Assembly (NCBI GenBank): GCA_963575745.1
Contig: CAUYUJ010000352.1
Coordinates: 1-64,000 of the forward strand
Direction of reading: 5' to 3'
DNA from: Prorocentrum cordatum
Taxonomy: Eukaryota > Sar > Dinophyceae > Prorocentrales > Prorocentraceae
Length of the DNA stretch: 64,000 nt
Shown one piece after another: positions 4,401 through 26,629 of the stretch. The position numbers and the translations under genes are program-made. Under the pieces are notes generated by a model. The model was not told the origin of the DNA and made no database searches. It saw only the letters and a program-made list of their open reading frames with translations. Each line of letters opens with the position of its first letter. Within the stretch, counting starts at the first letter, position 1.

Positions 4401-4480
4401 GAAGGCCGAGGGATCGCTGGGGAGGTAGGGCGCACTTTTAGGGATTAGCGCTAGGGATAGTCATAGGGCTTACTCTTAGG

Positions 4481-5638: not shown

Positions 5639-5770
5639 CAATAGCGGGGGGGGCTGCCGACGTTCTGTGGAGGGGCGGCGTTCGTGGGGATGCTGCGGCA
5701 GGTGCGCGCAGCTCCGGAGTAATTTGGATCGAACGTGGATCGAGTGTGCGCGCCGTTGCTTCCTGGGAGC
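5639..5770 (+). promoter_or_regulatory. Short leader between 387-bp array and the large gene
   Basis: 132 bases of non-repetitive sequence. No TATA-like or spliced-leader acceptor motif is convincing. By position it must hold the 5' leader of the gene at 5771, or the 387-bp array itself does. Confidence 0.3.
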
Positions 5771-8700
5771 ATGGTGCAGCAGAAGAGCAAACGAGGGGCT
5801 CACCTTCGTGTGGCTGGCAACGCTGTTGCGCTGGCGGGCGTTGCAGCTCGGGCGCGGCGTTCGGGCCAGGGGGCCGCCGGAGCGGCAGGCGAGGAGGCGA
5901 CGGGTGGCGGCGCTGGCGCTGCTGGGCCCGCGGGCGGCGGCGACGTGGCGAGCACGTCGTCGGGCGTCGTCGCGGCGGAGCGCGGCGGCACTGGCGGCGG
6001 CGGGGTTCTGGAGCACGTGGGCGGGGTGGGTGGCATGGCTCCCGGTGGCCCTGGAGGACGGCGGGCTCCTTGCAGCGGCGCGGGGCGATCTCTGGTGCCT
6101 GCGGGGCGGGCAGAGGAGTCGGCGGCGATGGGTGACGTTGCGCTGGGCGGCGGCGGAGCTTGGCGCAGACGCTCGTCTCTGGACAGCAGCAGCGATGATG
6201 GTGTGCCGGGCCGTGAGCGGGCGGCGGAGGGGGGCGGCGATGGTCGTCGTCAGGGACGCTCTTCGGTGGACTGCAGCAGCGTCGGGGGCGCCGTTGGTGG
6301 ACGTGGTCGCGGGGCCACGACGCTTGCGGGTGCTGGCGGCCGTGGGGGGGCGACGACTGCGCCTGGGGTCGGCGGCGGAGGGGCAGGGAGGGGTCGCGGC
6401 GGCGCGGGGCGGGGCAGAACGGTGACGGGCGCGCTGGCGCCTGGCGGCGTCGCCGGTGGTCGGCGGAGAAGGTGTTCCTTGGACAGCAGCAGCGATGGGG
6501 CCGGGTCGGGCGGCGAGCGCGAGGTGATGTTGGGCGGCGGGGGTCGTCTTGGAGGACGAGCGGCGCCGGGCGGCGGCAGCGGCGCCGACGCTGCGGGGGC
6601 GAGGCCCGGGACGCGGAGAAGGACCAGCCTGGACTCCAGCAGTGACGGGGGCGGCGTCGAGGTGGCTGCGGCCCTCGCCGGACGAGGTCGGCGGGGTCGT
6701 GGGCGGGGCTGCGGCAGAGGGCGGCGCGGCGGTGGCCGGCGCGGCGAGCTCGAGCTGGGCATGGGGGACGTGGAGGAGTGCAGGGTGTTCCAGCCGGCGT
6801 ACGTGGACCCGGCCAGGTGTCAGGCGCTGCTCTGGGGCGGTGGGCTGGGCCGCCTGCAGTGTGGCAGTGAGCCGGAGCCGGGGTCGGACCTGTCCAGGGC
6901 GCATCGGTTGTGCCCGCGCGGGCGCGTCACGGGGCCCATCCCGGAGAAGAAGCTGGACCAGTTCCGCAGGGTGGCGTTGGGCGTCCCCAAGCCGTCGAGG
7001 CAGTGGTACTCTCGTCACTTGATGTGGAGGTACGCCGCCGAGATGCGCCCGGAGCTCCAGTTCCTCAGCGAGCGCGACGAGGCGGGGCGCTGGAAGCTCA
7101 CGGACGCCGAGTACGAGCGGTGCCTGGGCAAGATTCAGGAGAACGTGAGGATGAATCGACGTCTCCGGGGGGGCAGGCCTGGGCTGGCGGTGTTGGAGGT
7201 GGGGGCTGGCGTGCGGTCCAGGGATGACAGGGGTGCTGAGGCGGATGGCGGTCGCTACGGGGCGGACCGCGAGCGCTACAACGGCCGGGGCGGCGGCCGC
7301 GTGTTCAAGTGGTACAGCCGCGCGGGCTTCAACAACGTATTGGCGCGGTGGGGGGCGTCTGAGTCCACGTGCACGGAGCGGCAGTGCATGGTGGCGCTCG
7401 CCGCCGTGTCTGAGGAGGTGGCGAAGTATCCGTTGCTGCATGATCGCCTGAAGGCTTTTGCGGGCCCGCAGTGCTACGCGCACCTGGACCCCGACGGCGG
7501 GGATTACCGCGTGCCCGTGAACGAGGAGAAGGGGGCGGTCGAGGAGGCTGGCGACGGGGAGCCCGTGGGGGTCTCGGTGGCTCGGGAGCTCGTGGAGCCG
7601 AGCAATTGGTTCCAGTGTGATTGCTGCCGGTGCTGGCGGTTCGTGGGGCCTCTGTGCGCGGCGGCGCTGCGGGAGTCCGGCTTCTTCGCCGTGCGCGACA
7701 GCGACCTGGACTGGGAGGCGTGGCTGGAGCGGGCGGACGATCGGTATAAGTTCGCGAAGGCGTGCCACGACGAACAGCGCGGAGGGGGTGAGGAGGGCGA
7801 CGGTGATGGCGGCCTCGGCGATGTCGCATCTGCGGAGGTGGCGGCGGCACCGGTGATGGGGCGGGGCGCTGTTGCCGCGCCGCGCAGGTTGCGCCGCAAG
7901 ACGTCCGCGGAGGCGGCGCCGCGGGAGGCTGGTCCGGGGGGGCGGCGCAGGCTGCGGCGGAAGGTGTCGCAGGACGAGGCCGTGGCGGGTGATTCTTCGG
8001 CGGCGGCGGGACATCGGCGGGCGGGGCTGCCGGAGACGGGGGTCGGCTCGAAGCGCCCGAGGGGCGGCGATGGCGGGTCGGCTGCGGGATCTGCTGGAGG
8101 CGGTGATGGTGCTGACGCGGGCGCCGTGGCTTGCGACGACGCGGGCGCGGTCGGCGCGCCAGATCCGCTGCTGGACGAGCGGTCCGCGTCCGACTTCGAG
8201 GTCGCGTCGTGCGACGGCGAGCCGACGGGGGCTCCTGTGGGCGCGGGAGGTGGCGGCGGCGGCGACGGCGGCGTGCTCGCGCCCGGCGTCCGGCGGCTGC
8301 TGGACGCGGAGCTGGGGCGCCTGAGGGGCGCGGGGCCGCTGACGCAGGAGGACGAGAAGAGGCGGAGAGTGGCGGAGGTGGCGGAGGGCGCGCGGGGATC
8401 GAGCGCTGGCGGCGGCGGCGGTGGCCGGGCGCGTGGCGGGGGCAGGGGCGACGTCGGCGGCGCGTTCGAGGTGGGGCGCCTCAAGGATCGGCGCTCTCTG
8501 CTTGTTTTTGAAGCTGTTCGGCAGTGGCTGTCTTCGCTGCCGGGAGCCGGAGGGAGGGCACCGGCGCTCTCCGTGGCGCAGCAGGAGAAGTTGTGGGCGG
8601 CCGTGGCGGGCGAGAGGCGGGACGGCGCGTCGGAGTCGCTGGGGGAGGTGCTGTGGGCGGTGGCGACGGAGACTGGCGCGGAGGCGGCGGTGGCGGAGGA

Positions 8701-11344
8701 AGACGATGACGGTGTCGAGCTACTGATTCGACAGCGCCGCATGGAGGCTGACTTTCGCCGGTCATCTTTGCCGGGACTGCGGTTGAAGTTCGAGTGCAGC
8801 ATGCTGCAGGCGGCGGTGGAGCGCTCCGACGGCTCGGTGACCTGGCGCGGGGTTCGATGCCACCATGGCGCGGAGGGGGGCGGCGACCCGGACGACTTCG
8901 CGATGTTGTGGAATCCGGCTTGGCGCGTGTCGCTGGACGCTGTGGCGGGCGACGGTGTGCTGGCGCTCCCGCTGCGGCGGCCTGACTCCTGGCGCGACCC
9001 TGCGGACATGGCGGATTCCTGGGCGCGGCGCGGCGAGGATCAGCACAGGGTCATGACCGGCCACTGGGCGAAGTTGGTTTTGCCGCGGGAGGGGCCCTCG
9101 CAGGAAGGGGGCGGCGATGGGGCGATGGACGGAGTTCGCGTGATGGGCCGGTCGCACGGCATGGTGTTGCGGTCCGCGGGGAAGGTTCGGAGTGGACAGC
9201 TGCAGGTAGAGGCTGCGAGTTCTGGCGGCGGGCTGCGGGGGCGGCGGGCTGGGACTGTGAAGAGGCTGAAGTTTCATCTGCAGGAGGGCCGGGTGCTCGG
9301 CTGGTTCTTGCCAGACCAGAAGATCCAGGCGCCGCAGGGAGTGCGGTGGGACCCGCGGCGGGAGGTGCCGCTCGCGGGGCCCGTGGACGTCAACCACATG
9401 GAGGTCGTACCTACTGCGGATTCCCACCGCAGCAACGCGCGGGTCGATTTGAGGGCGCCACTGGGGCTGCGCGTTCCGGGCGCCAAGGGTGCTTGGCGCG
9501 CCGCGAGCAAGGAGGAGGCGGAGCGGCGGAGGTGGTTGCAGGACGGCTACGTGCCCGTGCCCGCGAAGAAGGTGCCGGTGCGCGCGGTGAAGTACGACGC
9601 GCAGTTGAGGGAGGCTTCGCTGCGGGCGGTGCAGGCCATGCACACGATCATGAGTCGCATGGTGCTATTCGAGTGCAGGGACTGCAAGGAGCGCTTCCCG
9701 GCGTTTCACCCTGCCTATGAGCCGCCGCCGGAGATCGCGGAGAAGATGGAGGTGCTGAGGGCGGGGAAGAACGGCGTGGCGACGTGCTGCATGGCCGTGG
9801 CGTCCTGGGCGGAGTTCCCGCCGTCGCCCGAGTCGATGGCGGGCGGAGAGGCGTGGAAGGAGGACGACTGTGACTTCGCGGGGCGGTTCTCCGGGACGTG
9901 CGTGCGGTGTCAGGCGGACATGGATTCCCAGCTCGCCGCGATGGAGCGCGCGTCGCGCCGGGCCGCCGAGCAGGCCGCCGAGGATGGCGGCGAGGAGGGC
10001 GACGGCGCGGGTGGTGGAGGGGCGGGGGCGGAGCTGGCTCCGGCCTCGGTGATCGTCGCCCTGCGCTCGGAGGAGAATCACATGGATCCGTGCTTCCGGT
10101 TTCCGTGGGATGACCTCCAGGAGCTCTTCGACGCGGCGACCGTGACGGAGGCGATGTTGTTGGCGCTGGAGCACATGCAGGTCAACTACGTCACGGTGGC
10201 GCTGTCGGGCCTGCGGAAGTTCCGGAGGAACGTGCTGTCCTTCCCGCAGGACATCGCGGGCTTCGCCATGCGGCACGGGCTGCTGAAGCAGTACCGGCCG
10301 AGGGACCGTGTGGACTCCGTTCGCGGGCCTTGGGGCGGGGCGGAGAACCCGGACAGGCCGGCCAGGCGCTGGGGGGAGGTGACGGAGCAGGAGCGCGCGG
10401 AGCACGTGATGGACGAGGCGGGGTGCGTGATTTACCCGGGGGTCATCAGGGAGGTGCGGCCGGACGGCGTCTTGGTGGTGGAGTACGACGCGGGGGGCGA
10501 GGGGTTGGAGCGCCAGGAGAATGTGCGCCCGCGCGTGCAGATGCCATGGCAGCCGAAGCACGTGCCCTTGCATCTGATGCTGCGCCGGAACGTGGGTGGG
10601 AGGCGCGGTGTGCTGGAGGGCCTCAGGGTGCGCTGGCGCTTCGTGGCTAATGTGCTGCAGGCGCTGTGCGCGTACGCGGCCCCGGGGGCCGGGCCGTGGC
10701 GCCTCGACGGGGCCAGCGAGCGGGAGCCCATGCACAAGTACTTCGATCGGCGGCGGTTCCACGTGATGACGGTGGAGGAGCTGCGCGCGGAGTACGCGCC
10801 CAAGATGGCGGGAGGGGCGGTGCTGTCGCCGGCGGAAGAGGCGCGACTGACGGAGCGGGAGGCGCAGGACCAGGCTGTGGATCTGGAGACGCCCGAGCAG
10901 TTCATGGCAGCCGGCTTCTCATTGCGCTTTGTGGGGCCCGATGACGATGCTGGTGCGCGGGGCGTTGGGGTTGCGGGCTGCGAGACGCGTGGCGGGGATG
11001 GTGAACAAGGTGATGATGGTGATGCCGGCCCGGCCGCCGGCGAGAACGCGGGCGAGGGTGATGCAGGCGGCGGCGGTGGGGGCGAGGAGGCCAAGACCGA
11101 CTTGGGCGGCCTGGGCCAGGAGCGGGATGCGGAGCCGGAGTCTTTCGTGGACGCCGAGACGTTCACGCTGTGGCTGGGGAGCTCAGATTTTCCCGTTGGT
11201 GCGCGGGTTCGGTCCTGGTGGGCGGAGTTGCCTTTGGGCGCGGAGGGTGACCTGGAGGCGCTGAAGGCGGGGGATGACGAGACGGTCGTGGATCTCTTCG
11301 CCAGGGTGGTGTCGGAGCTCCGGGAGGGCGTTGTGACCGCGGGG
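5771..11344 (+). CDS. Helitron-like polyprotein, N-terminal region
   Basis: The open frame runs from ATG 5771 to a TAG at 11348, about 1,859 codons. It is also open upstream to a GTG at 5735. Residues 1-330 are Gly/Ala/Arg-rich with four copies of an RxxSSLDSSSD-like motif (near 6165, 6260, 6475 and 6625). A segment at about 7600-7770 begins NWFQCDCCRCWRF, which resembles a CW-type zinc finger, though one expected Cys is not obvious. A pair RRLRRKTS/RRLRRKVS lies near 7890-7970. From about 9660 there are CxxC motifs (ECRDC, TCVRC). Near 10200-10290 comes LRKFRRNVLSFPQDIAGF, like the FPQD segment of Helitron N-terminal regions. A Tudor-like stretch (YPGVIREVRPDG then VEYD) lies near 10425-10540. 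The frame probably splices in phase into the Rep exon at 11490. Exact function is unknown. Minus-strand frames here are shadows. Confidence 0.8.
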
Positions 11345-11489
11345 GTGTAGGGGGAAGAATCAAATAATGGTCAAGTTTTCCTGGTCCTCTTTCCTCCCTC
11401 TCCTCGTCCACGGATTATTTCGCGGGACGCGGGGGGGGGGGGGGAAGGGGCTAAGAGAGGTAGAGGTGTATTGTTTTTCTTTGCCCCAG
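11345..11489 (+). other. Candidate 145-bp intron joining N-terminal region to Rep
   Basis: It begins GTGTAG and ends TTTGCCCCAG|G, with a pyrimidine tract directly before the acceptor and a second C/T-rich stretch inside. Removing it joins GGG (11342-11344) to GCT (11490-11492) in phase 0 and eliminates the TAG at 11348. AG|G fits dinoflagellate acceptor preference. Alternatively the ATG at 11367 starts an independent Rep protein, but its first 41 residues then have no Helitron character. Confidence 0.7.
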
Positions 11490-14400
11490 GCTGGCAGCGG
11501 CATTGTCGGCGGCGCTGGGGGTGCTCGTGGCGCGGGAGGTACGGCGGGCGACGTGGTGCACGTGATGGATCTGGTGGATTGGTTGCGGTGCCGAGCGGGA
11601 GAGATCGTGCTGCACGGGGGCGCGGGCGTGGATCCGGAGGCTGTGTTGGACGATGTGCGCTTCGAGGTAGGGATCGCGGCCGGCTGGAGGGCCTGCGCCC
11701 AGGACACGGACACCGGCGGGGTGGAGCAGCACGTCAGTGGCGAGGACGAGGAGGACGAGTGCCTGCGTACGGCGGAGCGGCTGGTGTACGGGTGGCCGAG
11801 CAAGGCGTCTGAGCCGACGGGCCCTTTCAGCGAGGGCCGTTTCGTGAAGGCTTTCCCCCTGGAGTTCCCGATGGGCATCGGGGACATCTACCAGGAGCGC
11901 CCTCGGAAGGTCACGGCGGCGGAGTGGGTTCAGCACTTGATACGGTATCGCACGGGTCAGTTTGTGGGCGGGCCGCGGGGGCAGCGCGTGCTCTGGGCGA
12001 TGGTGAACATGCTGCTGCTGTCCGAGGCGCGATCGAAGGGGTGGGGCATTTACCGGAACACGGTGCGGCGCGGGGCGTTCGGCATGCTGGAGGCGGGCCG
12101 CATCTTGACCAAGGGGCGTCTGCGTGCGATTCTGGCAGACGAGGGGAGGGCGAGGATCCTGGTGGGCCAGCTGTCTACAGTGGGCAGGGACGTGCGCTCC
12201 ACGACCATGCAGTGGGCGTGGGAGGGGATGAAGTTGCAGGCCGCGGTGAAGCACTTGTCGTGGATGCCGCCCTGGGTGGAGGCCGAGGACCTCGACGGGC
12301 GACCTCCGGTGGGGCAGTGCTTCATGGAGAAGTTCCAGGTGGAGCGAGCGGGGGGTCGGCGGGAGTGGACGCGGGGGTTGGTACCTGATCCTGTGGGGCT
12401 GGGGCGCTTCCCGTCTTTGTGGTGGACGCAGAATCCCCACTACCACGCCGCGTTCGACGTGCAGCGCTTTGACGCCAAGGGCATCTCCTTGAGCGAGTTC
12501 GACGAGGGCTCCAGGCGCGGGCGCGCGGAGTTCGTTCGGGAGAGCGGGGACCTCGTGGCGCAGCTCGTCGCTGTGCGAGTGGAGCTGCACATGCGCGTCG
12601 TCATGCCGGCCGTGGTGCCGCACTCGGACCGTTTCCCGTATATGGCTATGGCTCGCTGGGAGACGGGCGGCGGGGGCAACCTGCATGCCCACGGTTTCAG
12701 CGTCGGCCTGCCGTCGCCGCAGGTGGGTCGTGTCATGGCGGACGTGGACGGGGAGGGCGACATGGCGCCGAGTACGTCTGAAGAAGACCTTCGCGCAGTG
12801 CTGCGCTGGTTGTGGCGCGAGGGAGGGGCCGCGGAGTGGGAAGCCATGGGGGAGATGTCGTCGGAGGAGGTTCGCGAGGAGCTGGCGGCGGTGCTCGGTC
12901 GCGTGTCTGCCTCGGAGGTGGGCCTGGCGGGGGCGGGTGCGCCGGTGGCGAGCGGGGCGGAGTCGGCGAGTGCGGAGAGTGAGGGCTCGGACCAGGAGGG
13001 CAGCGGCGAGGGCGCGCGGCTGTCGGCGGCGAGGGTGCAGGACCTCCTGGATGCGCTCGTGCAGGACGGATCCCTGGTGGCGATGGGCGGTGAGGCGGTG
13101 CAGGAGGTCGACGCGCGGTACCGGGTGGTCTCTGCGCCGCCGCTCGATGAGGCTGCGTGGGGGGCGCGGGAACGGGGCAGGCGCGGTGTGCTAGATCGGC
13201 GTCTCGGACCGGAGGCGCCTCGTGATCTCGGGGTGTTGAAGCCTGAGATGGAGCACGTGGACGTGCAGAGCCGGTTGGAGCAGCAGTTTGCGGACTTCTT
13301 TGGGGGGGTCGTGTCGGAGTGGAACCCGTGCTATGATAATTGCGGGCGCTGTCGGTTCAGGTGGGACGAGGAGATCGGGGCGCACGACGTGGAGGTGCTC
13401 GGCGAGGACGGCGTGGGGTCTGCGGGGGGGGCGTCTGCCAGGCTTTCGTCCGAGGACATGGCGCGTGTGAGGGTGCGGGGCGCCGCGCCGGAGCGGATGA
13501 ATCTGCGGGGGCTGCTGGACTCGGTGTTCGCGGTGCGGGGGGCCGAGAAGGTGGACGTTCAGCCTGTGCGGAGGCTCGTCGCGGCCCTGGTGGATCGTGT
13601 GGCGCGCCACACCAAGCACGGCATGGACGCGCCGAAGTTGGGCTTGCACGCGTGCGCGCGCGGGAAGGAGCCCTGCCCGTATTGCCGGTATGGGTTTCCG
13701 CGTGACCGGCTGCCTCGCGGCGGCGCCCGGGGGATGGTGATGGAGAAGGGGGGCCGGGAGGGCCAGTGGCATCCTCGGTTTCCGCGGAATGATCGCCTGT
13801 GCTGTAGCTATGAGGAGCACGTGCTGTTGGCGAACATGGGCAACGTGGACTGGCGGCCGGTGCTGAACCTGTGGGCGGTGACGGAGTACGTGACAAAGTA
13901 CGCTGCCAAGGCGCCGAAGGGCTCCCGGAGGCTGCGGGAGGTGTTGACGGATGCCGTGGACGAGGTGTGCAAGTACGTGCCGGAGGGGGAGGGGGTGGAC
14001 CTGCTGAGGCGGTGCATCCAGAAGTTCTTCGCCCGGAGCCTGGGGGAGCGGGACTACCATCTCTTTGAGGCGGTGCCGCTCGGGTTGGGCCTCCCGCAGG
14101 TGGTCCCGCTGATGCCGTGGGTGAGCTTGAACACTGCGGGGTCGAGGCCGCTGAAGCCGGCGTCGGCGTTGAAGGAGCTGGGGGACGACGCGGTGGTCCA
14201 CTACGACAGCAAGGTGGACAAGTTCAACAAGCGGTTGTCCATGGTGCGGAGACAGAGGCGGGCGGGCGATCTGACGGTGGACGAGATGGAGGTGCGGGAC
14301 GTGTCTCTCTTCGAGTTCTGGTGGAAGTTTTATGTGGACAGGGGCAGGGTGAGGAGGTCCACCCGGGCGGTGTGCATCATGGTGACCCCGAGCTACAGCG

Positions 14401-15047
14401 CCGACGTCGCCAACGTGGAGCACGCGCACCACGAGGGCTACGCGCGGGCCGCGGTGGTCGCGCACTGGAGGCACATGACCACGGAGCGCCGTCGCCGGCT
14501 CATCCGGGAGCAGACGGGTGTGCGCGTGGTGCCCGACGTGTGCATCGGCGGCACGGTGTTCGAGGAGCCCTTCGTGCAGGCGGGGCCGGCGGCGTTCGAG
14601 TCGGACCGCTATCTGGGGGTGGAGGATCTGTGGAGGCGGATGGCGGGCCTGCGCGATGATGCGGCGGGGGAGTTCTGGGGGTTCATGCTCATGGAGATGC
14701 TGACGGATCCGATGCTCCGGCAGTGGGTGCCGCAGTGGGTAGTTGAGCAGTACGAGCGCGCGAATCCCTTTTACAGGGAGGTCCTTGCGGCGCTCACGGT
14801 GGAGCCCCCGGATGGTCTGACCAATCGACGTCTGTTGAGGAGGGTGCGGACGGGCATGGTTCATCGGCATCAGGTGCATTTGCGCAGGAAGGCGGCGGAG
14901 GGCCGCGGGTGCGCGGGTGATGGAACGGGGGTGGACGGCGACGGCGGGGAGGAGGCTCGCAGCGAGGGCCAGCGTGCAGATTCGGAGGACGAGTGCGAGC
15001 GGTTGGGGGAGGGCGTCGACGACGATCCGAACGCGGAGAAGATATAG
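11490..15047 (+). CDS. Helitron Rep nuclease (HUH, two-tyrosine)
   Basis: This is the replication initiator that nicks and rejoins DNA in rolling-circle transposition. The Helitron Rep signatures occur in order. WWTQNPHYHAAF at about 12419-12454 matches the strand before the metal site. NLHAHGFSVG has the HxH pair at 12684-12692. CxxC clusters lie near 13330-13360 and 13673-13687 and precede a GFPRDR segment. TEYVTKYAAK carries the two candidate catalytic Tyr codons at 13887 and 13899 (Y-x3-Y). The rest matches the usual Helitron region between Rep and helicase. The tail (14870-15044) is acidic and ends in a TAG at 15045-15047, after which the same frame stays open into the helicase. A separate start at ATG 11367 is possible. 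It sits directly after the N-terminal region, as in known Helitron proteins. Confidence 0.88.
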   Translation, partial: AGSGIVGGAGGARGAGGTAGDVVHVMDLVDWLRCRAGEIVLHGGAGVDPEAVLDDVRFEVGIAAGWRACAQDTDTGGVEQHVSGEDEEDECLRTAERLVYGWPSKASEPTGPFSEGRFVKAFPLEFPMGIGDIYQERPRKVTAAEWVQHLIRYRTGQFVGGPRGQRVLWAMVNMLLLSEARSKGWGIYRNTVRRGAFGMLEAGRILTKGRLRAILADEGRARILVGQLSTVGRDVRSTTMQWAWEGMKLQAAVKHLSWMPPWVEAEDLDGRPPVGQCFMEKFQVERAGGRREWTRGLVPDPVGLGRFPSLWWTQNPHYHAAFDVQRFDAKGISLSEFDEGSRRGRAEFVRESGDLVAQLVAVRVELHMRVVMPAVVPHSDRFPYMAMARWETGGGGNLHAHGFSVGLPSPQVGRVMADVDGEGDMAPSTSEEDLRAVLRWLWREGGAAEWEAMGEMSSEEVREELAAVLGRVSASEVGLAGAGAPVASGAESASAESEGSDQEGSGEGARLSAARVQDLLDALVQDGSLVAMGGEAVQEVDARYRVVSAPPLDEAAWGARERGRRGVLDRRLGPEAPRDLGVLKPEMEHVDVQSRLEQQFADFFGGVVSEWNPCYDNCGRCRFRWDEEIGAHDVEVLGEDGVGSAGGASARLSSEDMARVRVRGAAPERMNLRGLLDSVFAVRGAEKVDVQPVRRLVAALVDRVARHTKHGMDAPKLGLHACARGKEPCPYCRYGFPRDRLPRGGARGMVMEKGGREGQWHPRFPRNDRLCCSYEEHVLLANMGNVDWRPVLNLWAVTEYVTKYAAKAPKGSRRLREVLTDAVDEVCKYVPEGEGVDLLRRCIQKFFARSLGERDYHLFEAVPLGLGLPQVVPLMPWVSLNTAGSRPLKPASALKELGDDAVVHYDSKVDKFNKRLSMVRRQRRAGDLTVDEMEVRDVSLFEFWWKFYVDRGRVRRSTRAVCIMVTPSYSADVANVEHAHHEGYARAAVVAHWRHMTTERRRRLIREQTGVRVVPDVCIGGTVFEEPFVQAGPAAFESDRYLGVEDLWRRMAGLRDDAAGEFWGFMLMEMLTDPMLRQWVPQWVVEQYERANPFYREVLAALTVEPPDGLTNRRLLRRVRTGMVHRHQVHLRRKAAEGRGCAGDGTGVDGDGGEEARSEGQRADSEDECERLGEGVDDDPNAEKI
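15045..15047 (+). other. In-frame TAG between Rep and helicase
   Basis: Frame 0 is open from 11367 up to this TAG and again from 15048 to 17779. The helicase side has no ATG near its start. In Helitrons Rep and helicase are one protein, so this stop is a nonsense mutation, a base error, a recoding site, or lies inside a short intron in the acidic linker (an AG|G lies at 15054-15056). Confidence 0.85.
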
Positions 15048-17779
15048 ATCATCAGGGATCCGCGGCCTGGCGAGGGGGATGGTGGCGCGGGTGGGGCGGA
15101 GGGTGAGTGGGCGAGAAGGACTCTGGAGGAGAGCCTCAGCGCGGCGGGGCCGGCCCGTGCGGCGCATGACGTGGACCTGGGCGTGGGCGACGGGGGCGGC
15201 GTCGGTGCTGGTGCGGGTCGCTCGCATTGGAACCCGAAGGGGTACGAGTGGACGAAGGATCCGTGCAACGTGTCCTGGCGGGAGAAGTCGCGCTTGGAGG
15301 GCCTCAAGGACCAGTGGTACGGCAAGGGCGACGTGGGTGACGGAGCCGAGGAGGTGGACGCGGGAGAGCTGGACGATTGGCAGCGCTTCGCGTACGACGT
15401 CGTCACGGGGGAGAGGCCTGAGGGTGCGGGACCGTTGCGTCTCATGCTGCTCGGTACCGCGGGGACGGGGAAGTCGCGCACGGTCAGGAGCTTCGTGTCG
15501 AAGAGGCGCTCCCAGGCGCGAGCGCGCGCCCTCGCTCGGAGGGCGGGTGGGCGGCCGGCCGACGCGGAGGTGGAGGTGCGGGCGAAGAACGCGTGCCTGC
15601 TGGCGGCGCCGACGGGCTGTGCCTCGTTCCAGCTGAAGTTCGGGGCGACGACGCTGCATCGTGCGTTCGGGGTGCCCGTGGGGTACTGCGGGCCCTGGAG
15701 TGACCGTGCCAGGGGGGGGAAGCGGTACGCGCACCTGAAGCAGCGTCTGCAGCAGGCCGACCTGCTGCTGCTGGACGAGCTCAGCATGATCGGGCGGGGC
15801 ATGCTCGGCAAGATCGAGTTCAAGGCGCGGGACACGCTGAAGGGGGAGGAGGGGCGCGCGGTGGGCCGGGAGGGCGCGGCTGCGTTCTTGCTGGGGCGCG
15901 ACGCGGTGCTGGCGGGGGATATGAAGCAGGCGCCGCCGATCGGGGACGATCCGCTGTATCGCTTCGGCGCGTACCAGGGGTCGGGCCAGAACAAGCCCAG
16001 GGGAGCGGCGATGACGCCCTCGGATGCGTGGTCGTCGTTTCGGCTGCACGCGGTAGGGGGGGACGTCCGGGACACGTTCGAGGACGTGGCGTTCCTGCGG
16101 CGGGTGTGGCGGTACGCGGACGAGCGGGACGACGTGCCGGCGGAGAGGCGGGAGCTTTATCGGCGGGAGGCGGCGCGGTTCCTGGAGGTGACGCGGGGCA
16201 TGGCGGAGTGCACGTGGACGGCCGCCGACCACGCGTGGCTGGCGCAGCGGAACCGCAGTCGGCTCCAGCAGACTGCGCAGGGCCGCGCGGAGCTGGCGCG
16301 CTTCGAGGACGCCCCGATCCTCATGGACGGCAGGGTGGACAGGGCTACGGGCGAGGTGGGGGCCAACAAGATCAACTTGTTGAAGTTGGAGAGGGTGTCG
16401 GCGAGGACGGGGAGGCCCATTGCGCGCCTGCATGCCTTCCACGACACGCCGGAGGGCCTGGAGCACCCGGAGGGGGTGGACGCCGACGACTTCAGAGGGA
16501 TCCAGAACGAGATCTTCGTGTGCGAGGGGGCGCGGGTGCTGCTCACGGAGAACTTGTGGGTGGAGGCCGGGCTGATGAACGGTGCCATGGGGACGGTGGT
16601 GGGGTACATGTGGCCGGAGAACGCGGACCCTCACGACGGCGATCCGGCCCACAAGGCCCGCACGGCCCCGATCTGCGTCTTCGTGCGGTTCGACAGCGTG
16701 CAGCTTCGCGATGCCCACGGGCGCCCGCGATCCTTTTTTCCGGGCGACGACGTGCGCGGGGACTGGGTGCCCATATTCCGCAAGACGGTGGCGTCGACGT
16801 CGGAGGAGGGCCTGGCACGGTCGAACTTCCCGCTGCAGTTGGCGTGGGCTCTGACGCACTGGAAGGCTCAGGGCATGACGCTGGAGCGGGTGAGGGTGCA
16901 CTTGTCTGCGAGGACGGCGGGCGCTCCGGGCATCGGGTTCGTGGCCTGCACGCGTGTGCGCCACCCGTGGGATATCGTCTTCGAGGAGGACCTGCCGGAG
17001 TACGAGGCGTTCATGCGAGTCCGTCGCACGCGCGCGTTTCGCGAGCGCCGGCGCTTCGAGCTGCGCTGCGAGGCCCGCGCGTCCAGGACGTTGCGGCGGT
17101 ACGGGTGCTGCCGGGCGGGCGCGTGGGAGCCGGTTGAGCGGGAGGCTGCGGTCGTGCTGATGGAGGGCCTTCGGGTGGTGGGGCAGGAGCGGCGCGCTGG
17201 GCTGCGGGGGTTCAGTGCGCGGGGCATGTGCAGGGCGGTGGACGGCGACACGTGGCTTTGGGGGGACGAGTTGCCGGACTATGACGGCCTTCTCGCGAAC
17301 GTGGTCGAGCGGGAGGCGCGCGGAGATCAGGGTAGGCGACGTCTGCTGCTGTCCGTGGCGGAGAGGCTGGTTGACAGCGCGCGCGTGAGGGAGCTCAGCG
17401 GGTCGGAGCGCGTTGACGCGGAGGCTCTCCTTGTGCGCTTGGGTGTTGCGGCGGCGGCCGGCGGCCGCGATGGGGGCTTCGGCCGGATTGGCGGCGTGCT
17501 GTGCCAGAATGCCCTTCGCGATGCCGCGCACGCGGTTGCCGCGGGGTGCGATGAGCGGGAGGTTGAGCTGGGCGAGCTGGCGACGAAGATGCTCCGGCGG
17601 CAGGACGTGCTGGGCTACTGGGACGGCAGGGTGGAGGACGCCCTGTCGCCGGAGATGCGGCCGTTGCACATGTCCGCGGTGAAGGAGGCTCTGGGGGCAT
17701 TGATTCCGGCTGCACTTCACGGGAGTCTCGATCGGTTTGTCGCGTCCCAGAAGGACGTTGCGGTGTTGGGGGGGGGGGG
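15048..17779 (+). CDS. PIF1-family helicase of the Helitron
   Basis: This superfamily 1B DNA helicase unwinds the donor strand during transposition. Motifs in order: Walker A GTAGTGKS at 15453-15476; APTGCASF then GATTLHRAFG at about 15606-15675; Walker B LLLLDELSM at about 15762-15790; AGDMKQAPPIGD at about 15912-15945; NLWVEAGLMNGAMGTVVGY at about 16551-16606; AWALTHWKAQGMTL at about 16842-16885; and GFVACTRVRHPWD at about 16936-16975. All are typical of PIF1/Helitron helicases, with LTHWKAQG in place of the usual T.HK.QG. About 250 further residues (17000-17760) match nothing I recognise. No credible start codon exists, so it should be read as a continuation of Rep. The frame is lost at the G run 17768-17779. 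Confidence 0.88.
17768..17779 (+). other. 12-G homopolymer with frame change
   Basis: Frame 0 codes for the helicase upstream of this run. Downstream, domain-like sequence (ASFLTMDRYRVN...) continues only in frame 1. A one-base length difference in the run would connect the two. A homopolymer this long is a common site of real indels, polymerase slippage and sequencing error. Confidence 0.8.
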
Positions 17780-20136
17780 CGAGCTTCTTGACCATGGACC
17801 GGTACAGGGTAAACGTGCGGTCGGAGGATGCTTTGCGCCGCGGCCGGTTCACGGAGGACGTCCTGGAGTTTTTCCTGAAGGTGTTGCAGCGGATCTGCGG
17901 TGTCCTGGCGCTGCCTGTCGCGGTGGCGAGCAAAACGGTTGGTCTGCATGCCGGGCGGGCGGAGTCCGCGGAGCAGTTCAGGAAGATCATGGGCGGCTGG
18001 AAGAAGGTTTGGAATCGGGCGGATGTGGCGGGGAAGAAGGAGCTGCTGTTGCCCGTCGCGGTGGACGAGAAGGGGCGCGACTGGTTCTGCGTGTCGGTGA
18101 GGTCTGCGTCAGAGGGCGAGGTTTTGGGGCGCGCGGAGCGCCTCGTCGTCCGGGTGTACGATGAGATGCGACGGCAGGGTGCGGCGCGTCGAGTGGCCTT
18201 GAACTTGGACGCGTTGGTGCGCGGACCCGCCTCGGCGGTGGCGGGCCAGGCGGGGCCGGAGACGATCATCGAGGAGGGGGTCCCCGAGTGCCAGGTGTCT
18301 CACCAGCGCTGCCTCTGCGCGTTCGGGGTCTTGCTCTCTCTGGTGTCCAGGGCTGCCGGGGAGAGAGGATTAGACATGGCGTCGAAGATGTTCGTGCCAG
18401 ACGCGGGCCAGGTGGTGGCGGCAGTCTTCGCGGGCTTTCGGACGCGTCTCCGCCAGGAAGGTGCGTCGGACGTTTCTGTCTTGTTGGTCGAGGCGGACGC
18501 GTGCAGGGCGGTGCTGCGGTCGCTGGGCCACGTGCCGTCGCTGGTGCGCAGGGGCGACGAGGCCGAGGGGGAGGGCGCGGAAGCAGCGTCAGGCAGCGCC
18601 CCCGGGGGGCGGAATTTTGCTCTGGAGCGGGGCCGCGGCGACGGGGCGACCGCGGGGGTGCGGCTGCGCGTGGGCACGTGGAACGTTGCCGGCGGGTCTT
18701 GGTCGGCGCAGGCTCCTCCCAGGTATGGGTGGAGAGATCAGAGGGCAGCCTTGGTTGCGGAGATCCTGGGGTGGCGGAGGGCCTTCGGCTGCGACGTCGT
18801 GGCGCTGCAGGAGTGCGAGGGGGCGGGCGCGATGGGCGAGCTGCTCGACCAGTACCAGTTCTTGGGCGCCACGCCGGCAGCGGCGACGCGGGGGTACGTC
18901 CACTTGTACGTTCGCATTGGCATGGAGGCGGAGCGGCTGTTGTGTGAGGCTTCCTCGGCTGCTGGCGTGGCTGCGCGCGTCAGGGTGGCGCCGGGCCGAG
19001 GCGGTGCCGCGGCGGACGAGGTCTGCGTCTTGGCAGTGCATTTGCCTGCCGGGGACAGGGCGGCGCAGCGCGCTGCCGCGCTGGGAGAGGCGCTGCGGTC
19101 GCTGGACGAGAGCGGGGCGGAGCGTGCCAGGGTCTTGGTCGTGGGCGACTGGAACGTGCGGGACGAGGAGGTCGCAGCGCTGTGCGAGGCTGAGGGCATG
19201 TGCGATGCCACGTGCGCTGGGAAGACCTGGGGCGTGAGGTGGAACAGGTTTTTCGCAGATCAGCAGTGCAGCGGCCCCGGGTTTCGTTTTGACCGCGCGA
19301 TGTTCGGGGAGAAGTTGTTTGCCCGGGCGCATGTGATGGCGCGGGGGCCTGTCGTGTTCGAAGGCGTGCAGTTTTGCGCGTCCGACCACTTCGGGTTGAT
19401 GGTGTACGTGGACGTGGCAGACGTCTTTGCGCTGCGAGGCAGGGGGCGCGCGGAGGCAGCCCGGGTGCGGCGCGGGGAGGTGTGTAGGGTCTGTGAGGTC
19501 GGCGGGGAGCGAGAGGCGCAGGAGGTCCGGGATCGCCGGCAGGCTGCCAGGGATCAGCAGGGGCTTGACAAGGAGAGGGCCGCGGAGAGGGACCGCGAGG
19601 CGTTTGCGAGGGGCCAGCAGAGGGCGGCTCGCGAGAGGGCACGCCGGAGGCAGGCGTTGCACGATGCGGCTTTCGGCAGGGAGTCGCTGTTCGATCAGGA
19701 CTTCGTCGTCGAGGCGGAGGGGCTGGGCGAGGGTGTTCAGATCTCCGCGCCGTCTGCCATTGTCGTGCCGGGCGCTGAGGAGTGGCAAGACGGTGGATGG
19801 GGAGAGGTCGCCGGCGTACCCGTGGTGGGCATGGGGAATTTGGGGAACACGTGCTACGTCAACGGCGTGCTGCAGCTGCTCCTGCGGGTGTCGTCCGTGC
19901 ACGAGGTCCTTTCGAGACATGGGCGAGACCAGTGCCCCAGGGCGTTGCTTGGAGAGGATTGTGTCGTGTGCTTGTTGCGGGAGACGCTGGGGCAGGTCAT
20001 GGCGGCGTCGCGCCGCGCAGGGGTGCGGAAGCCGAGGCTCGCGCAGGAGAGGGCGGCGGTGGACGAGCGGTACGGCGATGACCAGCAGTGGGACGCCAGC
20101 GAGTTCTTTGGGCATTGGTTCCACAGAGCTCGTCAG
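17780..20136 (+). CDS. Ulp1-like region, EEP nuclease and first half of USP
   Basis: Three domains follow in frame 1. (1) About 17780-18350: a C48/Ulp1-like layout. LLLPVAV is followed by DWFCVSV where HW is expected (18079-18099), then VYDEM (18154-18168) and HQRCLCAFGV (18301-18330). The usual catalytic His is Asp, so activity is doubtful. (2) About 18660-19430: an EEP-fold nuclease with GTWNV (18673), LQE (18805), GDWNV (19144) and SDHFGL (19381), the set expected for metal-dependent phosphodiester cleavage. Helentrons carry such an endonuclease. (3) A charged coiled coil (19480-19660), then the USP Cys box GNLGNTCYVNGVLQLLL with Cys at 19852-19854, and QQWDASEFF near 20080-20110. The frame leaves coding sense after CAG at 20134-20136, where a GT donor lies. 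No independent start is evident. Confidence 0.85.
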
Positions 20137-20359
20137 GTTCGGAAGTCGGGCGAGGGCTCGGAGACGCGTGGCTGCGAAAACATAATGAGGGAAGTTGTAT
20201 TTTGCCGGAGGGAAATTTGTTTCACTGATTGTGTACTGCGTTATGTTTATTTTTTTGTGTGTGTGTTTGTTTAGTTGTGTTTTTGCTTTTGTGTCGCTTC
20301 TCTCTCGGAGATTGTTTTAGCGGCCACGGGATCGGCGGCCTTTGTTGGGGCTTCGGCAG
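20137..20359 (+). other. Candidate intron inside the USP domain
   Basis: Starts CAG|GTTCGG and ends GGCAG|GTGGAG, joining phase 0 to phase 0 (HRARQ then VELDAGR). The interior is T-rich, unlike the flanking exons. An alternative acceptor TTTTAG at 20318-20320 with a better pyrimidine tract also keeps phase 0. AG|G favours 20359. Without splicing the USP would lack its His box. Confidence 0.75.
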
Positions 20360-21094
20360 GTGGAGCTGGATGCCGGTCGGTGCGTGCCGTGGGGCGATGG
20401 ATGGCTACATGGGCAGGACGGCTTCCAGGTTACGCACTGGGATCGCCTGTTCAGGAGTGTGACAGAAACGCGCTCGCGGTGCCGCTCGTGTGGTCTTTGC
20501 CGTGCCAGGTACGGGTCGGCCGAGATGGTGTGCGTGGTCCCGCCCGAGGACAGGAGGGTGTCGTTGACGACCTCCGAGCTGTATCTGCGCGCGTGCGGGC
20601 CCGAGGTGCAGGAGGAGGCGGATCGCCTCGAGTGCCCGAGGTGTGAGTCCCGGCAGGTGCACGTGCTGCAATGGCGGGTGCGCGAGCCGCCGACGGTGCT
20701 CTTCGTGCGGGTGATCCGCCCCGTGGCGGCGGGGGGCCAGGGCGTATTGCTGCGCCGGCGCGTGGACGTGGAGGAGGAGATCCAGCTGCCGGGGTTTCCG
20801 CGCATGGTGCTGGCGGGGGTGCTTTTTCACAACGGGGCCACGGTGCGTTCTGGGCACTACACGTCCATGTGCCGCGGGCCGGGCGGTATGTTTTGGATGT
20901 ACGATGACGCGAAGGTTCAGGCGGTGCAGGGCGGGGTGGGGGAGCAGAAGCCGGCGCAGGTGCACCTCATGGTGTATGTAAACCCGCGCGGCGGGGCGGT
21001 GTGGGAGGGGCTCGCGCGGGGCGGTGTGGCTCGCGCAGGGGCGGCTCTGGATGGCGGGCGTGCAGGCATGCATGCAGTCGCATGCGGCTTATGA
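20360..21094 (+). CDS. USP domain, C-terminal half with His box
   Basis: This completes the ubiquitin-specific protease begun at 19824. Two zinc-binding CxxC pairs (CRSCG at about 20480-20495 and CPRC at about 20633-20645) are as in USP finger regions. VLFHNGATVRSGHYTSMCR carries the catalytic His (20855-20857). WMYDDAKVQAV gives the usual Asp, and VHLMVYV is the closing strand. Cys, His and Asp are therefore all present, so the deubiquitinase may be active if expressed. The stop is at 21092-21094. A USP within a Helitron protein is unusual: cysteine proteases of other families (OTU type) are known in some Helitrons. Confidence 0.85.
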   Translation: MELDAGRCVPWGDGWLHGQDGFQVTHWDRLFRSVTETRSRCRSCGLCRARYGSAEMVCVVPPEDRRVSLTTSELYLRACGPEVQEEADRLECPRCESRQVHVLQWRVREPPTVLFVRVIRPVAAGGQGVLLRRRVDVEEEIQLPGFPRMVLAGVLFHNGATVRSGHYTSMCRGPGGMFWMYDDAKVQAVQGGVGEQKPAQVHLMVYVNPRGGAVWEGLARGGVARAGAALDGGRAGMHAVACGL

Positions 21095-21620: not shown

Positions 21621-22040
21621 CACGACAGGCTAATGGAGGTCCCGAGAGGGCCCTAGACGGTCCCAAGAGGCCCCGAAAACGCCCAAGCTGCCCTCAAGAC
21701 GGCCGACGAGGACTCCAACACGCTCCAGGACGGGTTCAAGAGGCTCCCCAAGAGAGCCCTGGGAGGCAAGATTCACTAATGTTCCGATGGTTTCTGAAGG
21801 ATTTATGCGTTCTTGCTCCCCCCGCTTCTCAGCGCTCCCTCTCGGCCTCGTTCGGAGGCCCTTCAGATCGCTCCAAGACGGGCCACGAGGCCCCGAAGAG
21901 GGCCCCAAGACGGCCCGGGAGGCTCCCCAGACAACCCAACTGTGCCCCAAGAGCTTCCCAAGAGAGGGCCCAGAGGGGGACCGCCAACCGATATTTCGAG
22001 GTCTCTGGCCCTAGAGGCCGCCTGGAGGCCCCCAGAGGCC
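21621..22040. repeat. Degenerate CCCAAGAGG-type repeat
   Basis: About 420 bases of imperfect 10-13 base units with cores CCCGAGAGGGCC, CCCAAGAGGCC and CAAGACGG. Same family as 450-570. Confidence 0.65.
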
Positions 22041-22356
22041 ACCGAGAGGGCCACGGTAGCCAGTTCGCGGGGGCGTTGTTCGTGGCTCTCTGTGTCGCTT
22101 CTTCTTCCTCTTACTGTCCGTTTGCGTCATCATGGCACGTTCGCGCGCCCCGCAGCATTTGGGTTCGACGCGCCCGGTCTGTTGCCGAGCGCGCGCGGGG
22201 ACGAGGCGAGGCAGATCTGGTCTTGGGGATCGAATGCAATCCAGCCCAGGGCGTGCGGGAGAGGTCGGGGTCGTCGTCGCTGTCGTCGTACGTGGCCGCT
22301 GCGCGGTTGTTGCGTCGTGTCCGTTAGAGTTTCGCGGTTCGGTCCTTTGCAGGGTC
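22041..22356 (+). promoter_or_regulatory. Upstream region of the RPA-like gene
   Basis: Non-repetitive 316-base stretch between the degenerate repeat and the ATG at 22357. No clear promoter motif is visible. The bases TTTGCAGGGTC just before the ATG could serve as a trans-splice acceptor, which dinoflagellates use to add a leader. Confidence 0.3.
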
Positions 22357-22470
22357 ATGGCGCCCAAGAGGAAGCCCGAGCAGGTGCGGCCGGTTGGGCT
22401 CGAGAGGCTGGACGCCAGCATGCGGAACGCGTGCGTCGACGTGCAGGTGTTGGGCGTGGCGTGCTCAGCG
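22357..22470 (+). CDS. RPA-like protein, exon 1
   Basis: Begins ATG at 22357 with MAPKRKPEQVRPVGLERLDA, then VDVQVLGVACSA, a strand pattern fit for the start of an OB fold. It ends in phase 0 at a GTTCGG donor, the same hexamer as the USP intron donor. It belongs to the RPA-like gene because the following exons continue in phase. It may be the element's single-strand DNA-binding protein. Confidence 0.55.
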
Positions 22471-22608
22471 GTTCGGGATCGCCTCTGGGCGGCGGGATGG
22501 GATGGGGTCGGGAAGGGGAGGGGGGGGTGGTAGGGTGGGGCGGTAGCTCCATGTGGCGGCGCGCGATTGTTTCCTCCGATCCTGGGCGGGGGCAGGTTAG
22601 GTATCCAG
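22471..22608 (+). other. Candidate RPA intron 1
   Basis: GTTCGG...TCCAG|CGG, 138 bases, phase 0 on both sides. An AG|G at 22594-22596 exists but would lead to a stop at 22683 from a phase-0 donor, so 22608 is preferred. Confidence 0.5.
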
Positions 22609-22855
22609 CGGAGCGGCCGTCGGCTGGTCGTCAGTGGACCTCTGGCCTTTGCTGCGTGCGGGCGCTTGCACGGTCCGGTCACTGAGGCGGTGGAGACCTT
22701 TACGTTCATCGACAAGGAAGATGGGGAGACGGAGCGCGTGTACGGGGTCGCTGCCGGATTTGCCCTTGGCAGGGTGGTGTCGATGACGTTCTTCGGCGAG
22801 GCGGTGGACGAGATGCTTTCGGCGTGCGTGGACGTGCCCGTGGCGCTGCGGCTGC
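22609..22855 (+). CDS. RPA-like protein, exon 2
   Basis: Codes for RSGRRLVVSGPLAFAACG, then FTFIDKEDGETERVYGVAAG and MTFFGEAVDEML. This is like an RPA OB fold (a tFfFGe.vd.mL pattern). The 3' boundary is uncertain: a GT at 22856 (phase 1) or 22867 (phase 0). Confidence 0.5.
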
Positions 22856-23075
22856 GTGGGGGCATGGTGGGGATACGTCGGTGCCCTGGCGGCTTGTTCT
22901 TTGCTTCGTTCGCTTCGGCCTGTCTCTATCGCCGCGTTGTGGTGGTCGTGATGTGGTGGTCGCGATCTGTGTGTGTGGCTCTGCTTGGATCGGTGTTGCG
23001 GTCGGATCATCTTGCTCGTTTCGGGGGGGATCGTTTGGGGAGGGGCGCGGGCGATGTTTCTTTCGTTCACGCGAG
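22856..23075 (+). other. Candidate RPA intron 2
   Basis: Between two coding-like stretches the frames lose protein character and the sequence is T/G-rich. Donor GTGGGG at 22856 and acceptor CGCGAG at 23070-23075 would keep phase. Both ends are tentative. Confidence 0.35.
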
Positions 23076-23215
23076 TTCCCATTATGAGGGGCACCCGCGT
23101 GCGCGCGGGGGACGTTGCCCGCGCGATCGGGGCGGGGTTCGCTGGAGGTCACGAGACGTCCCTGTCGACGATCATGTACGACATGACGTTCGACAGGAAG
23201 TTCGGTGTGCAGAAC
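23076..23215 (+). CDS. RPA-like protein, exon 3
   Basis: Frame 2 reads MRGTRVRAGDVARAIGAG, then GGHETSLSTIMYDMTFDRKF, with GVQN before a GTATTT donor at 23216. This has strand-helix character fitting the end of one OB fold. The left boundary is approximate. Confidence 0.45.
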
Positions 23216-23528
23216 GTATTTCTTCTTTTGTTTGGCGTTTTTTTTATTGTATTTTTTTTTTGTTTTTTTTTCTTTTTTTTTTTTCTTTTTTTTTTTGGCT
23301 TTTTTTTTTTTTTTTCTGGTTTTTTTTTTTGTGTTTTTTTTTTTTAATTTTTTCCTTTATTTGTTTCTTTTTTTCCTTTTTTGTTTTTCTGTTGTTTTTT
23401 TTTTCTTGGTTTTTTTGGTTTTTTTTTTTTTTTGTCTGGGCGATGGCGCCATCGGGCTTGGGGACGTGCCCGCGTGCGTGGCGACCTCGGGCGGGCGCCC
23501 GGGGCACGTGGCGGGCGCGGTGAGCAAG
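23216..23528 (+). other. Candidate RPA intron 3 with a 210-bp T-run field
   Basis: GTATTT donor, then about 210 bases that are mostly runs of T (23226-23437), then GC-rich sequence to a CAAG|G acceptor at 23525-23528. The T field lies unusually far (about 90 bases) from that acceptor. A nearer exon start without a canonical AG cannot be excluded, since frame 0 is open from 23205. Confidence 0.45.
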
Positions 23529-24677
23529 GTCGGTGAGATCAAGCACGTCCACCGCAGCATTGTGACGAAGGACCGGGGCGGTGGGGACCGGAGCGTCGAG
23601 GTGATGGAGGTGGAGGTTGCGGTCGAGTCTCCGACGGCATGCGTCCTTGCTGTGAACGTGTGGGGCAAGGGCGCGCGCGTGCTGCGCGGCGGTGTCTTGG
23701 GGCGGGCGCCGCCGTATCCGGTGATGGTGCACGGCTTGTCTTTGCGGCCGGCGGGGGAGGGGAAGCTGAAGGCGACGCTGAGGGGCGGCGGGGCCATTCG
23801 GGCCATGGAGGCTCCGGAGATGGTGCGCTGGTACGAGGGGGTGAAGGAGTCCCTGGAGTTGGCGACTCGGGTTTATCGGGCGCCGTCCTTGGCCGATGCC
23901 GTGGCCGTGACTGGCGTTGGGTTTCGCAGCTTGCACGAGGCCATCGAGGGCGGCAATGCGGAGGAGGTGCACCACGTGAAGGTGGCGGCGTCGTTGGTGG
24001 ACGTTTACCGCAAGAGAGCGCCTTTCTACGAAGCGTGTTTGGAGAAGACGGTGGAGGGGCGGACGTGCCACAGCAAGACGGCGGCGGGCTTCTGCTGGCG
24101 GTGCGACAAGGAGGTGGCGAATACGGAGCCGTTCATGTTCGCGCGTGTGCGGTTGCTCTTTGAAGATGGGGCGATGGCATGGGTGACCGTCTTGGGGGCT
24201 TCGGGGGAGCAGCTCCTCGGCGTTTCGGCGCAGCACGTGGCGGTGTTGGAGAGCGTGTCCGTCAGCGGTGGTGATGCGGCGCGGAAGAACCTGGACGGCG
24301 TCGTGAGGGGGGCGAGGGAGGTCAAGTGGACGGTTGGGGTGAAGTTGGAGGGGTACGAGACGGATGAGGGGGTGGTGGCGAGTGCGACCGTCTTCGAGGT
24401 GAAGACGGTGCTCAAGCGTTCGGCGGCGGATGCGCTGGGAGGTGCCGGCGTGAGCACGGGGGCGGCGCCGGGGGCCGATGGCCAGGCGGTGTCTCCGAGC
24501 GCGGCGTCGGCCTCGGGGGGTCGCGGCGGTCTATTCGGGTTCGGCGGCGCCGAGGACGGCGGCGGGTTCGGGTTCGGAGGCGGCCCCCCTGGCGCGGCGG
24601 CGGGGTCTGGCGCGGCGGCAGCCTCGGCGGCTGGTGGCGATGGGGCGCCGCAGCAGGAGGATGACGCGGAGGAGTGA
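23529..24677 (+). CDS. RPA-like protein, final exon with zinc OB fold
   Basis: This resembles the large subunit of replication protein A. A first OB-like part (VGEIKHVHRSIVTKD, then VNVWGKGARVL) is followed by RPA70 domain C features. FYEACLEK at about 24024 is followed by further Cys in TCHSK, FCW and RCD (C-x9-C-x8-C-x2-C), then ARVRLLFEDGAMAWVTVLGA and QLLGVSAQHV. The tail is Gly/Phe-rich (GLFGFGG, GFGFGGG) and ends acidic (DDAEE), with TGA at 24675-24677. RPA proteins are carried by several plant and protist Helitrons, and the location just after the RepHel gene supports an element-encoded role in protecting single-stranded transposition intermediates. A host gene captured or neighbouring by chance is the alternative. 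Confidence 0.8.
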   Translation, partial: VGEIKHVHRSIVTKDRGGGDRSVEVMEVEVAVESPTACVLAVNVWGKGARVLRGGVLGRAPPYPVMVHGLSLRPAGEGKLKATLRGGGAIRAMEAPEMVRWYEGVKESLELATRVYRAPSLADAVAVTGVGFRSLHEAIEGGNAEEVHHVKVAASLVDVYRKRAPFYEACLEKTVEGRTCHSKTAAGFCWRCDKEVANTEPFMFARVRLLFEDGAMAWVTVLGASGEQLLGVSAQHVAVLESVSVSGGDAARKNLDGVVRGAREVKWTVGVKLEGYETDEGVVASATVFEVKTVLKRSAADALGGAGVSTGAAPGADGQAVSPSAASASGGRGGLFGFGGAEDGGGFGFGGGPPGAAAGSGAAAASAAGGDGAPQQEDDAEE

Positions 24678-26600: not shown

Positions 26601-26629
26601 GTATCTGGTAAGGAAGCTCTACGAGTCTC

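Follow-up and report, generated by a model that had tools for sequence, protein, structure and literature searches.

Organization of the coding path

Does a rolling-circle transposon of a bloom-forming marine dinoflagellate carry a deubiquitinase of its own, and what would such an enzyme do there? The question is raised by the left part of a 64,000-nucleotide stretch of Prorocentrum cordatum DNA (contig CAUYUJ010000352.1, positions 1 to 64,000 of the forward strand; hereafter the window), for which an earlier note, made from the letters alone, had claimed a Helitron or Helentron with Rep, PIF1 helicase, EEP nuclease and ubiquitin-specific protease (USP) in a connected reading path, and an RPA-like gene next to it. 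One coding path, from an ATG at 5771 to 21094 (about 4,980 codons), includes an HUH Rep, PIF1, an unassigned conserved domain, EEP and USP. The element is Helitron-like and would work like a Helentron, with the class of its protease, the extra domain and its size setting it apart. On balance, we favor the reading that the path represents, in decayed form, one of the multiple copies of a large rolling-circle element of the Helentron-like kind, encoding a protein of about 5,000 residues, the USP of which would act on the element's own protein. The parts of the coding path are as follows.

5771..11329 (3' border approximate), plus strand: N-terminal exon, from the open reading frame (ORF) and motifs
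10076-10294, plus strand: DUF6570-like stretch (E 0.0031 for the sub-piece, 0.03 for the whole of ORF1)
11330..11490 (approximate borders), plus strand: probable intron between ORF1 and ORF2, from the frame change and a pyrimidine-rich stretch ahead of CAG
12678..13904, plus strand: HUH Rep, with NLHAHG at 12678-12695, CRYGFP at 13683-13700 and YVTKYA at 13887-13904
15453..16967, plus strand: PIF1 helicase, with Walker A GTAGTGKS at 15453-15476, DELSM at 15774-15788 and ACTRVRHP at 16944-16967
17664..18648, plus strand: unassigned conserved domain in the interval between helicase and EEP, from alignment A4
18673..19389, plus strand: EEP nuclease (PF03372, 1.2e-9), with TWN, LQE, GDxN and SDH motifs
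19825..20136, plus strand: first half of USP (PF00443, 3.1e-8), with the Cys box NLGNTCY (NTCY at 19846-19857)
20137..20359, plus strand: intron inside USP, 223 bp, GT...AG, read across by relatives
20360..21094, plus strand: second half of USP to the stop (2.3e-8), with CxxC pairs, the His box GHYTS at 20852-20866 and the Asp box YDD at 20900-20908

The domain calls and their order were borne out by Pfam matches of the window frames to PIF1 (PF05970, 1.3e-10), Exo_endo_phos (the EEP match listed above), Rep_fac-A_C (1.1e-6) and UCH, the last being split over two complementary frames that cover profile positions 1-109 and 121-241; for Rep, the support came through relatives. By the GC content at the three codon positions, the region of about 11.7-20.1 kb and the second exon of USP show a coding signal in the frames expected. 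The second codon position was the lowest in GC in every 300-base piece of 11.7-20.1 kb in the expected frame, so that the linker between EEP and USP also looks coding.

The USP domain and its fusion to the EEP nuclease

The fusion of USP behind EEP, as proposed in the earlier note, was confirmed on two sides: EEP and the first USP half share a single stop-free frame (17704-20274) in the window, and the two domains stand in single proteins in relatives. A USP profile built from 15 proteins matched human USP36 (8bs3) in PDB at 2.2e-30 over about 315 positions, first among the best 60 of 106 matches. The catalytic residues were examined in an alignment of 32 rows, consisting of 30 of the 31 proteins from the EEP/USP searches (P0002 was omitted as near-identical) and the two window frames. 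The Cys is present in all 20 rows with a letter and the His in all 16, and the second of the two Asp columns contained Asp in 15 of 16, except for P0036, whose end looks frame-shifted; P0012 and P0039 are among the relatives that have all three residues. Judged from these residues, the element carries a catalytic domain of the USP class (peptidase C19) that is complete in its Cys, His and Asp, and the domain is predicted to be a deubiquitinase.

The place of the intron inside USP is read straight across by P0003, P0005, P0006, P0007 and P0036. The DNA of a related locus, L001 (described below), is also open at this place, and the intron of the window may therefore be a later insertion. Introner elements are reported to be enriched in P. 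cordatum introns (PMC10666404).

For the 14 proteins, of a total of 30, that were picked for covering both EEP and USP, the identity matrices of the two domains were correlated (Mantel r 0.85, p 1e-4, 91 pairs). Pairwise USP identity ranged from 34 to 83%, and the mean identity of the EEP-USP linker was 40%. The invariant Cys and His and the divergence of EEP and USP in step indicate that USP is an old and kept part, long inherited together with the nuclease. These data bear on the possibility that USP is a host gene or gene fragment, passively captured and without any role in transposition. Capture of host gene fragments by Helitrons is known (PMC6431247), USP is the last domain of the path, and one copy, P0003, has lost the Cys box. 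In contrast, the in-frame fusion, the conserved linker, the retention of Cys and His at USP identities of 34-83% and the divergence in step with EEP point to long selection, and we consider such a passenger quite unlikely.

Copies and relatives with the same domain order

A search with the EEP-USP frame gave 14 proteins, five of which (P0001-P0004 and P0006) are from P. cordatum. P0002 agrees with the window at 748 of 749 aligned residues and, from this identity, is probably the window's own gene. The sequence of EEP and then USP is found in the four further P. cordatum proteins, P0001, P0003, P0004 and P0006, all on contigs of other lengths (the longest being 44, 291, 30 and 596 kb, respectively), and none of them extends back to Rep. 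Outside the P. cordatum set, further relatives, including those from metagenomes, also contain EEP and UCH in single proteins. P0036, a single protein of 1,946 residues, contains PIF1 (4e-8), EEP (2.9e-12) and UCH (3.8e-19). EEP and UCH are accompanied by a weak PIF1 piece (0.0013) in P0037 and by weak Pif1_2B (0.003-0.005) in P0039 and P0040, and are preceded by a helicase motif in P0041. Single proteins also join the N-terminal parts: Rep tyrosines, PIF1 and EEP in P0029, a Rep match and PIF1 in P0015, and DUF6570, Helitron_like_N, HUH and Tyr in P0022.

A scan of genome contigs gave 195 pattern matches and one relative, L001 (NHDG01000107.1), which is the sole DNA-level locus outside P. cordatum. 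In L001, a Rep motif, PIF1, EEP and half of USP are ordered on 7.6 kb, the stretch examined starting downstream of the HUH part. The Tyr motif of Rep (971) and the Walker A motif (2549) share the first frame; the second (2943-7568, 1,542 codons, stop-free) continues with the rest of PIF1 (DEMSM), the unassigned domain, EEP and the initial half of USP, in this order. This USP half is weak when taken alone (0.062) because the contig ends there; P0040, 99.8% identical to L001 over 1,459 residues, holds the whole USP domain (2.9e-20). L001 is filed under a Planctomycetia metagenome-assembled genome despite its eukaryote-type transposon, probably through a binning error in the public genome.

The earlier note had staked its reading on the linked order recurring in another copy; the order recurs in the EEP-USP copies of P. 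cordatum, in P0036, in P0029 and in L001. The same records decide on the possibility that the path consists of chance open frames in GC-rich DNA or of neighboring host genes. The GC content is about 70%, and 138 stop-to-stop frames of at least 80 residues overlap 4000-27000, as such a reading would have it. Against it stand Pfam E-values down to 1e-10, the steady codon-position signal, and the recurrence of the order, both within single proteins of relatives and in L001 DNA. With P0036, P0029 and L001, chance juxtaposition is refuted for the path from Rep to USP (not for RPA), and we assign this reading a negligible probability.

Within the window, tblastn with the frames of the element gave no match outside these frames. 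A viral origin found no support: three pattern scans of viral contigs matched 1, 48 and 6 stretches, with none of these being a relative at E 1e-3, in a set from which near relatives of the window genome were possibly excluded.

The copies might also represent a domesticated, immobile host gene family of Helentron-like origin. In line with this, neither ends nor a target site were seen, domesticated transposon-derived VTD genes exist (PMC9741609), and many dinoflagellate genes are organized in tandem arrays (PMC11453091). However, the element has HUH, the Tyr pair, PIF1 and EEP, with RPA nearby, and the P. cordatum matches, which lie on five contigs (one of them probably the window's), differ in their breaks, as the copies of a transposon in decay would. 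We therefore regard domestication as improbable, and continue with the Helentron-like element.

N-terminal part, Rep and helicase

The N-terminal exon contains a repeated RRxSLDSSS motif and a zinc-finger-like CxxC...CxxC at 9674-9910. DUF6570 was also detected, at 3.6e-4, in P0022, a single protein that spans from DUF6570 through Rep and is continuous at the place of the probable intron at 11330-11490. In the Rep alignment (A1, 20 rows), the HUH His pair is kept in 14 of the 15 rows with a letter, except for P0030, which looks misaligned, and both Tyr of YxxxY are kept in all 19. Helitron_like_N was matched by 6 of the 20 aligned Rep rows (E up to 1), the best at 2.5e-5, short of the curated cut-off of Pfam; in P0022, P0024 and P0020 the matches stop at the HUH motif. 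The PIF1 assignment is further supported by the PDB match to a PIF1 structure (6hph, 3.3e-12).

The unassigned domain was aligned for 9 proteins (A4), which showed 40-73% identity to the first. Searches of Pfam and PDB with 17664-18648 gave no convincing match. The idea of a degenerate Ulp1/C48-like protease arose from a motif-like pattern seen by eye; no such Pfam family and no convincing PDB match were found for it.

The type of the EEP nuclease

Six residues of the EEP motifs are invariant in all rows with a letter, and the question is which type of EEP enzyme they belong to. Instead of a target nuclease of the AP-endonuclease kind, the EEP might be a 5'-tyrosyl-DNA hydrolase resembling TDP2, in which case the element would carry its own enzyme for reversing the Rep-DNA bond. 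With a profile from helicase to USP, TDP2 (9e-8) was the only EEP enzyme among the best 60 of 93 matches. With the EEP-only profile, TDP2 (5.7e-4, second half) was placed ahead of exonuclease III (0.0031), beta-hemolysin (0.0059) and APEX1 (at least 0.5). Exo_endo_phos_2, the family cited for the nuclease of a mite Helentron (PMC4067079), was listed for none of 11 members. The best match of the EEP-only profile was, on the other hand, an exodeoxyribonuclease of Neisseria (3.2e-6), aligned over the first half only. By these matches the EEP may be either exonuclease III-like or TDP2-like; a TDP2-like activity is conceivable, but we are inclined to doubt it.

State of the window copy

The coding path is interrupted in the window at two places other than the introns.

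15045..15047, plus strand: in-frame TAG, with the coding signal going on in the same frame
17768..17779, plus strand: 12-G tract with a frame change, read through by P0003, P0004, P0036 and the DNA of L001

At the site aligned with the TAG, there is no stop in P0036 or in the DNA of L001, and the proteins of the relatives are continuous over all four places (two introns, the TAG and the 12-G tract). Two gene models of P. cordatum deviate in their splicing: P0001 and P0002 near the 12-G tract, and P0001, in addition, at the USP intron, where a few extra residues are retained. The two breaks are either real decay or assembly errors. Neither these breaks nor the conserved domain between helicase and EEP had been described in the earlier note.

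Comparing P0006 with the window over 17773-21091, 33 of 53 differences are explained by T>C, and polarization of its 29 private changes gave 20 T>C and 3 A>G (p 6e-4). For P0003 over the same interval, an excess of A>G was found (12 vs 3 of 29 changes, p 0.018). The pattern resembles a hypermutation of the A-to-G type that is strand-specific and affects the copies of the transposon, as read from the proteins only.

The RPA-like gene and the flanks

Two further features flank the coding path.

22357..24677 (start and introns approximate), plus strand: RPA-like gene, with a C-terminal DNA-binding domain and a Cys motif at 24036-24104
4479..5638, no strand assigned: 387-bp tandem repeat in 3 copies (TRF period 387, 94% matches)

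The RPA-like gene lies about 1.3 kb downstream of the coding path on the same strand, and its frame closes at 24677. Its C-terminal domain is supported by PF08646 (7.2e-7 for a sub-piece) and by human RPA70 (1l1o_C, 2.2e-4); no Pfam family was matched by the two pieces scanned upstream of it. The 387-bp array stops about 130 bases ahead of the ATG and could be a promoter array or a 5' part of the element.

The GC content of the left 26 kb is 57-74% in 2-kb steps. In the remainder of the window, to the right of 26 kb, satellites and microsatellites are abundant, and the 21 frames of at least 170 residues were repeat-like or non-coding as judged by eye without a family scan. Satellite arrays of about 177 bp recur through 26600-63300, and a unit at 26602-26900 (175-305 bp in matches) recurs at at least 14 other places in the window.

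Several observations weigh against the reading favored here, and are gathered in the following. Among the profiles that the earlier note had named for a check, PIF1, Exo_endo_phos, UCH and Rep_fac-A_C were matched, but Helitron_like_N gave no match in the window's own Rep at E up to 1. With a Rep profile, PDB yielded no HUH structure, the top match (0.094) being a PIF1, and the Helitron Helraiser was matched in PDB via the helicase only (E 0.058). Most relatives are protein records, the DNA of which may contain introns. The window copy is itself broken at the TAG and the 12-G tract, and signs of decay are seen in further copies from P. cordatum, P0003 being without the Cys box and P0004 stopping after it. 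The Asn two residues ahead of the USP Cys is variable (N, D, H, F or W), and the activity could thus differ between members. The link of RPA to the element is adjacency in one window. Finally, an inverted-repeat scan and a self-comparison of the flanks gave no element ends; the inverted repeats in the two flank regions were mostly AT-repeat palindromes near 26.45-26.6 kb, and the self-comparison gave repeats that recur in the window's right half, from about 26.6 kb onward.

A possible role of USP in transposition

The Rep of Helitrons forms a covalent tyrosine link to the 5' end of nicked DNA. Helitrons in general perform rolling-circle transposition through Rep and helicase (PMC6431247, PMC4067079). 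Along these lines, Rep would nick the element and remain covalently bound through tyrosine at the 5' end, PIF1 would unwind the DNA, RPA would cover the single strand, and EEP would open the target or release the covalent end. USP would strip ubiquitin from the element's own protein, especially from covalent Rep-DNA intermediates, and the deubiquitinated intermediates would escape proteolysis by the proteasome or by crosslink repair. Alternatively, the target of USP may be host chromatin or repair factors. In zebrafish, VTD domains borne by Helitrons cleave ubiquitin chains, and protection of the transposition proteins has been proposed by the authors (PMC9741609). On this view, USP may shield the element or its DNA intermediates from the protein disposal of the host.

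A more far-reaching proposal combines this with the TDP2-like nuclease: a self-shielding transposon with one giant protein, in which an HUH Rep that cuts DNA and carries it covalently and a PIF1 that moves along it are accompanied by an EEP that reverses the tyrosyl-DNA bond and by a USP that deubiquitinates the crosslink, so that host DNA-protein-crosslink repair is bypassed. We consider this unlikely. If true, rolling-circle transposons would have recruited at least three deubiquitinase classes (OTU, VTD and USP) under the same pressure. For the Helentron-like element as favored here, the question raised is whether ubiquitin limits transposition, and at which step.

Comparison with known systems

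Cellular USPs, of which human USP36 (8bs3) is the nearest with a solved structure, have in common with the window USP the catalytic domain, the Cys, His and Asp boxes and the CxxC pairs; unlike these, the window USP is fused behind a transposon nuclease. PAN2, a subunit of the deadenylase, likewise joins a UCH-like domain to a nuclease. In PAN2 the UCH-like domain is not known to have the catalytic triad and the nuclease is a DEDD exonuclease; the window element has an EEP nuclease and a complete triad.

The icefish Helitron2 'Helinoto' of Capriglione et al. (2014) reportedly, as its title says, has three deubiquitinase-like domains, and such domains in rolling-circle transposons are therefore not new as an idea. 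The earlier note knew of no described element with a USP. In agreement with this, no USP is named in a Helitron in the available parts of the open PMC literature consulted (PMC9741609, PMC4067079, PMC4289320, PMC10666404, PMC11453091, PMC6431247, PMC4528327, PMC12910113, PMC7599744 and PMC7928374); the claim may hold, provided that the Helinoto domains are of another class. What is added to the rolling-circle transposons is a predicted deubiquitinase of the USP class, present both in a dinoflagellate and among relatives from metagenomes. The element further provides an architecture that spans about 5,000 codons and includes a conserved domain of no assigned family, and its relatives offer open frames suited to expression.

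The closest likeness in organization is to the Helentrons (Thomas et al. 2014, PMC4067079): HUH Rep with two Tyr, PIF1, an EEP fused behind and an RPA gene nearby. Helentrons have been described with OTU, whereas the window element contains USP in that place and an extra conserved domain ahead of EEP. Pfam listed no OTU family for the six frames scanned in the window (E up to 1); OTU is optional, and membership of the Helentrons is not excluded thereby. Described Helentrons also have subterminal inverted repeats and a 3' palindrome, and insert between T nucleotides. Their EEP is of the AP endonuclease type; that of the window element may be exonuclease III-like or TDP2-like, and is not matched by Exo_endo_phos_2. 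In size, the coding path of about 4,980 codons compares with more than 1,500 residues for RepHel and more than 2,000 for RepHel with extra domains (PMC6431247).

The zebrafish Helentrons (PMC9741609) resemble the window element in that a deubiquitinase domain is encoded in frame with the RepHel and endonuclease of the transposon; besides OTU, VTD domains are known in Helentrons from the same work. The zebrafish elements carry VTD and OTU and the window element carries USP, another class, which points to a separate acquisition. With different deubiquitinase classes recruited by rolling-circle transposons, a shared need for this activity is likely.

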